A stretch of 64,000 nt of DNA, taken from positions 62,001 through 126,000 of the forward strand of contig NZ_AADV02000006.1 of assembly GCF_000167195.1 (NCBI RefSeq), written 5' to 3'. The position numbers were made by a program, and so were the translations under genes. Shown one piece after another: positions 18,828 to 23,177 of this stretch. The stretch is from Crocosphaera watsonii WH 8501 (GTDB lineage: Bacteria; Cyanobacteriota; Cyanobacteriia; Cyanobacteriales; Microcystaceae). Every line of letters begins with the position of its first letter. Position 1 is the stretch's first letter. The notes under the pieces were generated by a model. The model did no database searches. It worked only from the letters and a program-made list of their open reading frames with translations, and had not been told where the DNA came from.

Positions 18828-19914
18828 TTAACCATCGCCCAAATAAATTCCTAGCGATCGCGCTGTCTTAACCATACAATCGTATTTTTCCACAGGAGAG
18901 GTACATATTTTTTGCTGATGACGCTCCTTAATGGTAGCAGTGACGGTTGATAAAGGTTCACTACTCACCTGGCCTTTTTGCCACACCACTAAATGATCGT
19001 AGTTTTCTGCCTGAATCAGTTCAACCGCTTTAATGCCGAAAGCAGTCGATAATAGGCGATCCCAAGCAACCGGGGGATGACTACGTTGCAGATGTCCTAA
19101 AACTGTTGTACGCATATCGATATCTTTTAACAGACAAAAATCTTCGTGTTTCTCATGACAAAGAATTTGACTGTATTCTTTAATCTGTCTGAGGAGATAA
19201 TCAGCAATATGGGGATCTTTTTCTTTGTTTTGAGTTTTAACCCCTTCTGCAATAACCAACAAACCAAAATGACGGCCTAACTTTTGTAACCTTAATAGTT
19301 GATGACAGCAACCGTCCAACACATCTAAACTTAGATAGGGTGTCAATTCAGGAATAAGGATTACATCAGCCCCTCCGGCGATCCCTCCTCGTAAGGCTAA
19401 ATGCCCTGCATCTCGCCCCATAACTTGCACGATCATAATCCTGTTATGACTAGCTGCAGTAAAAGTTAGATCGTATAAAGCTTGGGTAACAATTTCAACT
19501 GCTGTAGAAAAACCTACAGAAAACTCTGTAAAGGGAACATCATTATCGATAGTTTTGGGAATAGCAATGATCTTCCAATGACCTTCTTGAGCAAGATTAT
19601 AGATAATATCTAGACTCCCATCTCCGCCAACAACGATTAAAGCATCTAATAGATCCTAAGACACTGCCACTGAAAAACTGTAAAACATCTAACCCTCTAA
19701 TTCTTCCGGGCAGTTGATAACATTTTCCTGTTAACAACAAATCCTCGGGACAACATTTTTCCTCAGCAATATCCCGAAAACCGTCGGTTCCGTAGGGAAG
19801 CCCATAAACCACCCAGTTATTGAGTTCCGAAGCTTTAACCACTGCACGAATTACAGCATTTAACCCCGGACAGTCTCCCCCACTCGTCAGGATACCAATA
19901 CGTTTACCACTCAT
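18828..19914 (-). pseudogene. pfkA: 6-phosphofructokinase gene with internal deletion and frameshift
   Basis: The first part (from ATG 19914) reads [21 protein letters not shown] and continues to FFSGSVLGS. The second part, in another frame from about 19652 to 18828, reads [27 protein letters not shown] (catalytic TIDND), SVGFSTAVE and [13 protein letters not shown]. In intact enzymes about 25-35 residues lie between LGS and the DALIV segment; here they are missing and the frame is shifted, so a small deletion inactivated the gene. The enzyme makes fructose 1,6-bisphosphate in glycolysis. Cyanobacteria often carry a second pfkA, so loss need not block the step; no second copy is in this window. 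The C-terminal half is otherwise well kept, which suggests recent loss. Confidence 0.85.
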
Positions 19915-22141: not shown

Positions 22142-22265
22142 AATGATTGTTATCCTCATCTGTTAAGGACTTTATTATAGCGACGGTGTTTTGAGTCACT
22201 GAAGAATCATAATTGAGATTTTAGAATTGTTTTACAGTGCTAACTGCTAAGGTAGGGACAAGAAA

Positions 22266-22470
22266 TTAAATGGCGATCGCCCAAACACTATGAGTTAATT
22301 AAACAAGCATTGAGGGCGAAATTTCAACAAAATTCTCTCACTTACGAGCAATTAATGGCAACAGGTGGTTTACGATACAGGGAAAGAAGAAAAACTCAAT
22401 ACTTCCTTACCTGCTTCTGAATTTACCCGTATTTTGACGGAGTTACGAGAGGAGTTGCGCTTATCGTGAC
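22266..22470 (+). pseudogene. short gene remnant, unrecognised
   Basis: Two overlapping frames give KHYELIKQALRAKFQQNSLT, then YEQLMATGG, and after a frame change near 22370 GKEEKLNTSLPASEF, then TRILTELREELRLS before a stop at 22468. The codon-like composition and helical character suggest the end of a former gene. I cannot assign a family. Confidence 0.35.
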
Positions 22471-22541
22471 TTGAAAAATTAATTTTCCAGGAAGTGATAG
22501 GAAACGTTTCATTTTTGGGCAGACTAGGTATAGATAAAAAC

Positions 22542-22675
22542 AAGTCACTCTTAAATAAAGATTTGCTGTTTTGAAAACCCTTTAATTTAATATTTATTGT
22601 CTTACTCTGTCTCTTCTTTGTGTCACTTTACTCATGATTCTTCTAGAAATACCTCAGTCTATCTGAGGTTTTTTT
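22542..22675 (+). ncRNA. candidate small RNA, repeat unit 1
   Basis: A TATAGAT -10-like box (22529-22535) is followed by a predicted RNA of about 134 nt. The 5' end can fold as CAAGTC (22541) with GATTTG (22560), and the RNA ends in a perfect intrinsic terminator. The -35 region is weak. No coding frame is kept between the two units. The family is unknown to me, and transcription is inferred. Confidence 0.4.
22651..22675 (+). terminator. intrinsic terminator, repeat unit 1
   Basis: ACCTCAG pairs with CTGAGGT over a TCTAT loop, and a run of seven T follows directly. It is the clearest intrinsic terminator in the window. Confidence 0.8.
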
Positions 22676-22748
22676 ATTGAAAAAATTAATTTTCTGGTAA
22701 GTGATAGGAAACGGTTCATTTTTGGGCAGACTAGGTATAGATAAAAAC

Positions 22749-22882
22749 AAGTCACTGTTTAAATAAAGACTTGCTGTTTAAACACCCCTTTAATTTAATA
22801 TTTATTTTCTTACTCTGTCTCTTCTTTATGTCACTTTACTCATGATTCTTCTAGAAATACCTCAGTCTATCTGAGGTTTTTT
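22749..22882 (+). ncRNA. candidate small RNA, repeat unit 2
   Basis: Same layout as unit 1: TATAGAT at 22736-22742, 5' stem CAAGTC (22748) with GACTTG (22768), and the terminator at 22859-22882. In unit 1 one base of this stem is changed, but the pair remains possible as G-U (CAAGTC with GATTTG), which suggests selection on the fold. It lies about 295 bp upstream of the malic enzyme start. Confidence 0.42.
22859..22882 (+). terminator. intrinsic terminator, repeat unit 2
   Basis: ACCTCAG, loop TCTAT, CTGAGGT and six T, identical to the hairpin of unit 1 apart from a T-run one base shorter. Confidence 0.8.
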
Positions 22883-23177
22883 ATTGAAAAATTAATTTTC
22901 TGGTAAGTGATAGGAAACGGTTCTTTTTTTGGAACACTACCTATAAGATTAAAAAACATCCCTTGATATTATAGCTGATACCCAACCCAAGCAAGAAATT
23001 AAACTATTATTCAAAGAATTAGGATAACCGAATTTAGGGGATAAACTGAAAGGGACACAAGAGAAATCCTAGTCAAGCGATCGCATCAATTTTAGACCAA
23101 TGACTATCTGTGTCAGGATAAACATCAACATGAAGGGAGAAAGTGTCAATCTCTCTTGATATGATTTAAGGAGTTAC

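Follow-up and report, generated by a model that had tools for sequence, protein, structure and literature searches.

A tandem pair of putative PsrR1-related small RNA genes beside argF in Crocosphaera watsonii

Between argF (ornithine carbamoyltransferase) and a gene for an ACT-domain malic enzyme, Crocosphaera watsonii WH 8501 carries a tandem repeat that is probably a pair of trans-acting small RNA (sRNA) genes, belonging to a subfamily of PsrR1-related paralogues found at argF in Crocosphaera. The repeat lies in a 64,000-nt stretch of contig NZ_AADV02000006.1 (positions 62,001 to 126,000; "the window"), and coordinates below are positions in that stretch unless another contig or locus is named. 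Its units are homologous to units at the same place in related genomes, stand in tandem, share a conserved promoter block in which no HLR1-like box was found, and end in a terminator with compensatory base changes. We propose that each unit, having its own promoter and terminator, would give rise to an RNA of about 137 nt, and that the CU-rich, largely single-stranded 3' half of this RNA would pair with the ribosome-binding regions of mRNAs and block their translation. In the related species the likeliest target would be cpcA (phycocyanin alpha); since the pairing region is changed in the species of the window, the target set of the window copies has probably been weakened or shifted.

Architecture of the repeat

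Both full units are on the + strand, divergent from argF and pointing towards the malic enzyme gene, and each comprises a promoter region, the predicted sRNA and a terminator. Repeat comparison placed unit 1 (207 bases) at 22474-22680 and unit 2 (206 bases) at 22681-22886, with 93% identity between them. A third, partial copy (22887-22954, +), delimited by repeat and promoter alignment, consists only of the promoter region with a decayed box, its similarity being confined to the first 67-68 bases of the unit. These spacings of 207 and then 206 bases agree with the tandem 207-bp repeat and partial third copy described in the initial annotation, and the TATAGAT boxes, CAAGTC arms, CU-rich middle and terminators that it reported were likewise recovered in place in both units. 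The conserved promoter block, from GTGATA to TATAGAT, spans 22494-22535 in unit 1 (-10-like box at 22529-22535) and 22701-22742 in unit 2 (-10-like box at 22736-22742). The predicted RNAs, both of about 137 nt on the + strand, would run from 22539 to 22675, with the start placed from the -10-like box, and from 22746 to 22882; both positions are supported by matches to a covariance model of the relatives' units (R2, see below). The two units differ in 18 alignment columns, 12 of them in columns 1-127, one in columns 128-202 and five in the T-run end.

The intrinsic terminators lie at 22651-22675 and 22859-22882 (+), and their stem-loops with T-runs (22651-22669 and 22859-22877) are identical to each other. 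Taken alone, the terminator scan is weak, since it found two sites on the repeat against a mean of 1.0 (sd 1.1) in shuffled sequences; better support comes from conservation of the terminator and from compensatory changes at three of its seven pairs across 11 units. Overall folding of the two units was unremarkable to modest (z -0.61 and -2.21). The 5' stem occupies 22541-22565 in unit 1 (arms 22541-22546 and 22560-22565, from the sequence) and 22748-22773 in unit 2 (arms 22748-22753 and 22768-22773, from sequence and folding), pairing CAAGTC with GATTTG and GACTTG, respectively. The initial annotation took it for a structural element, which the comparison does not show: over the 11 aligned units there were no compensatory pairs, three of the six pairs were invariant, two had changed one-sidedly, one departed by mismatches only (in two units), and the stem was missing or cut in two units. 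A covarying 5' stem is thus unsupported, and the element may be of importance at the DNA or the RNA level.

Nearby in the window, the stretch from argF to unit 1 (22260-22470) resembles decayed coding sequence and has a counterpart at the equivalent place in strain MO_202.B2 (locus L044). Further upstream, a 6-phosphofructokinase (PFK) gene on the - strand is split between two frames (18828-19436 and 19597-19914); since PFK families match the C-terminal as well as the N-terminal part, the gene is frameshifted, a pseudogene or the result of a sequencing error.

Orthologous units and their relation to PsrR1

Six other Crocosphaera genomes have orthologous units upstream of argF, in divergent orientation to it. 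MO_202.B2 has two, of which the first is truncated at a contig end; MO_167.B6 also has two; MO_188.B44, SU3 and MO_133.B10 each have a unit; and BG0011 has one together with a promoter remnant. Three species, that of the window included, thus have tandem copies, and two have promoter remnants. In MO_192.B18 (L072) the promoter and first stem arm are followed by unrelated DNA, and no unit was found within the 700 bases examined in MO_199.B6 (L071). Beyond the argF sites there are a dispersed copy in MO_167.B6 and a unit in G016, a genome from another genus of the family. A DNA search with unit 2 matched five of 59 genomes, the window's own included, all within the genus, and a model that contains the window units (R1), run with strict filters, matched two of 148 genomes of the order, namely the window's own and G016. 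Two of the loci compared lie near Cyano-1 RNA (RF01701) matches above the cut-off (L049:770-832, - strand; L045:2412-2482, + strand). In the interval that separates the units from the malic enzyme gene (22955-23177 in the window), MO_167.B6 (L038) has an opposite-strand acyl-CoA dehydrogenase-like gene that the window is without.

We built R2 from nine relative units, leaving out both the window units and canonical PsrR1. In 1.98 Mb, R2 found sRNA 1 (22539-22673; 73.2 bits, E 4.1e-9) and sRNA 2 (22746-22881; 71.3 bits, E 9e-9) as the only significant matches, the next reaching 27.2 bits (E 0.75). It also matched the cut first unit of MO_202.B2, which is outside its training set (51.4 bits, E 1.1e-5). 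Six of 80 argF loci were matched, all six from Crocosphaera, and since most of these matches are training sequences, the 74 negative loci are the more informative result. Of 32 loci selected for their PsrR1-like sites, R2 matched 20 with E no higher than 1, in every case at the PsrR1 site and in ten cases with E <0.01.

The initial annotation knew of no named cyanobacterial RNA with this layout, a view that is not supported, since the PsrR1 family (RF02701) matched eight of the nine relative units and was the only family to do so at an E of 1 or less. The Rfam gathering score of 42 bits was reached by one of the nine, the G016 unit (G016:C5, 42.7 bits), and seven scored 30.0-37.4 bits: SU3 37.4, MO_167.B6 36.9 and 30.0, MO_133.B10 34.5, MO_188.B44 32.1, BG0011 31.5 and the dispersed MO_167.B6 copy 30.5. 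The second unit of MO_202.B2 had no RF02701 match at E 1. For the window units RF02701 was the top Rfam match, at 19.7 and 19.2 bits, far under the cut-off; six of 14 control genomes also match at this level in a comparable setting, so these scores taken alone are at chance level, and the link to PsrR1 comes from the relatives. At the gathering score, Rfam found only a tRNA in the window, and the rimP leader, snoRNAs and other Rfam names that appeared on the window units were far under their cut-offs and were taken as chance.

The UUCUCCUA motif, our reading of the RF02701 consensus, stands before the terminator in six of the nine relative units and in all eight canonical loci shown, from the genus and G016. 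It is absent from both window copies, which have UUCUUCUAG at its position (22638-22646 and 22846-22854, +). The ACCUC(A/G)G terminator arm of PsrR1 is present in the window units. Among the literature matches listed, none concerned PsrR1 copies in Crocosphaera, and PMC8670252 was the only one listed with both names.

Promoters and the canonical PsrR1 gene

The GTGATA-to-TATAGA block is kept across the aligned upstream regions (13 rows, including the decayed third copy), and elsewhere in 2.06 Mb of the window's genome its 23-base core occurs only with four mismatches, at five places. We compared these promoters with canonical PsrR1 promoters for HLR1, the RpaB box, using the consensus quoted in an excerpt of PMC13421787. 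By sequence match to this quoted consensus, six of eight canonical promoters had a box within two mismatches and the other two within three, and none of nine unit promoters had one within three, the scanned regions being slightly shorter for the units (100-112 bases) than for the canonical genes (130 bases); random 120-mers matched in nine of 2000 cases within two mismatches and in 146 of 2000 within three. From this difference we infer that the argF-linked units would answer to a regulator other than RpaB.

The genus has canonical PsrR1 as a gene of its own, with RpoC1 encoded beside it in six of the seven genus loci read (L013-L017 and L019; the exception, L012, is a short piece). RF02701 matched in eight of nine genus genomes, the window's own being the exception under strict filters. 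In that genome RF02701 gave nothing above 30.8 bits and a DNA search nothing at low E, and the RND-type neighbour of canonical PsrR1 appeared only at 24% identity. The N-terminal 369 residues of RpoC1 were also not found in this assembly, which is listed as 99.95% complete, so the absence of a gene from it should be read cautiously; the region of canonical PsrR1 is probably missing from the assembly. Three other PsrR1-like sites were seen: one in G016 directly after psb34 and convergent with csaB (L048:1930-2002), one in genome G001 after a Psb34-like end (L040:2001-2067), and one in the window's genome that is convergent with csaB and scores 28.4 bits (C45:1965-2042; about 1501-1578 of locus L033).

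Predicted pairing and alternative readings

PsrR1, the transcript of which is induced by high light, has cpcA and psaL as known targets. We scored nine RNAs against 13 photosynthesis genes and a background of 532 starts in a duplex screen, the energies of which disregard accessibility. The cpcA percentile was 0.0 for both canonical RNAs, 0.8 for the SU3 unit, 1.3 for G016:C5, 2.4 for BG0011 and 3.9 for the first unit of MO_167.B6; the two window units stood at 11.5 and 22.0, and the PsrR1-like copy of the same genome on contig C45 at 18.2. Median percentiles across the 13 photosynthesis genes were 37-52, indicating no general preference for such genes, and psaL percentiles were 70-96 for the nine RNAs, canonical ones included.

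A second comparison set each RNA against the cpcA leader of its own genome and counted how many of 300 shuffled sRNAs paired as well. None did for canonical PsrR1 in six of six genomes. For single or first units of the relatives the counts were 0 (BG0011), 1 (MO_188.B44), 2 (SU3), 2 (MO_133.B10) and 6 (MO_167.B6), although these five tests are not independent, as the cpcA leader hardly varies from species to species. In the relatives, second or dispersed copies were unconvincing (74, 197 and 16 of 300), and for the window units (28 and 46 of 300) pairing with cpcA was not clear. The predicted pairing in SU3 and BG0011 joins UUGUUUUGCU with AGCAAAACAA in the cpcA leader, with variants in other relatives, and the UUGUUUUGCU stretch differs from that used by canonical PsrR1. 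The window copies are without the UUGUUUUGCU stretch; the cpcA leader of their genome retains the site. A wider screen of 1533 starts (2.09 Mb) gave no convincing target for the window units, with cpcA at rank 319 and the top 25 starts not annotated by family search. When canonical PsrR1 of SU3 was searched as DNA against the window's genome, the best hit was weak and fell on the strand complementary to the cpcB-cpcA spacer (C293:27304-27341, E 0.22). The same genome has a phycobilisome alpha-type gene with one in-frame TGA (G000:C289:13584-14045; L159).

These pairing results could also be read as decay. The window copies would then be relics, PsrR1-like genes that lost their pairing motif and persist only through recent duplication or gene conversion, which we consider unlikely, if well short of negligible. 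The change from UUCUCCUA to UUCUUCUAG in both copies, their weak cpcA pairing, the drift of the relatives' second copies, the remnant state of the third copy and the unconvincing screen of 1533 starts all fit such a history. Against it, both copies retain promoter block and terminator, and the 75 columns at 128-202 have a single difference compared with 12 in the 127 before them, although gene conversion could give the same pattern. It is very unlikely that the units are a cis-acting leader or attenuator of the malic enzyme gene. That gene is indeed on the same strand, about 300 bases downstream, but each unit ends in its own terminator, and the units of MO_167.B6 and MO_133.B10 are followed by an opposite-strand gene (acyl-CoA dehydrogenase-like and DHH family, respectively). 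Least probable of all is a small-protein gene or a mobile repeat: short frames of at least 20 aa do start inside the two transcripts (27 aa, 22597-22680; 24 aa, 22771-22845; +), but they are mutually dissimilar, as the initial annotation had noted in finding no conserved frame, and the ATG before UUCU(C/U)CU opens different short frames in the window and in relatives, and, notwithstanding the dispersed copy in MO_167.B6 and the unit in G016, a search of the window's own 6.24-Mb genome gave three matches, all at this locus, so the unit is not a dispersed repeat there.

We therefore retain duplicated, PsrR1-related sRNA genes as the preferred reading. In this respect the initial annotation, which had proposed duplicated small-RNA genes, is supported by syntenic orthologues, promoter block, compensatory terminator pairs and tandem copies in two further species, and needs revision in its 5' stem and its lack of a named relative. 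More tentatively, it is possible, though we would not favour it, that a PsrR1 paralogue took up a place next to argF under a new, RpaB-free promoter and with a new 5' half, and was then duplicated, with its pairing region rewritten towards new targets, in the lineage that comprises C. watsonii and MO_202.B2; the new promoter and 5' half would allow phycocyanin to be turned down by a second signal, and an sRNA family would have been caught changing both its input and its output. Our results suggest a small PsrR1 family, instead of one RNA, in these nitrogen-fixing cyanobacteria, its members being unlike in promoter and pairing region and including copies that a search at the Rfam cut-off misses. 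They also make it possible to test, in a marine group of importance, how the inputs and targets of sRNAs evolve.

Comparison with known RNAs places the units close to PsrR1 (SyR1), which in Synechocystis acts as a repressor of photosystem I and antenna mRNAs according to excerpts of PMC6202907, PMC8136909 and PMC12850537. Like PsrR1, these units have a CU-rich single-stranded 3' half with, at its end, a C/U-rich motif that immediately precedes an intrinsic terminator of the ACCUC(A/G)G type, their predicted length of about 137 nt is similar to the 131 nt given for Synechocystis and S. elongatus in excerpts of PMC6202907 and PMC6091082, and the relatives' units share the predicted pairing with the cpcA leader. 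The window copies differ in 5' half, in promoter block, in locus (argF rather than rpoC1) and in tandem arrangement; because they also score far under the RF02701 cut-off, have UUCUUCUAG in place of UUCUCCUA and are without an HLR1-like box, we class them as PsrR1-related rather than as PsrR1. For the tandem arrangement alone, and not for homology, there is a precedent in NsiR1 of Nostoc, a heterocyst-related RNA of filamentous cyanobacteria that an excerpt of PMC12157317 describes as a tandemly repeated sRNA cluster. Most likely, the argF units are known in kind and new in detail: a diverged, tandem, PsrR1-related sRNA subfamily.
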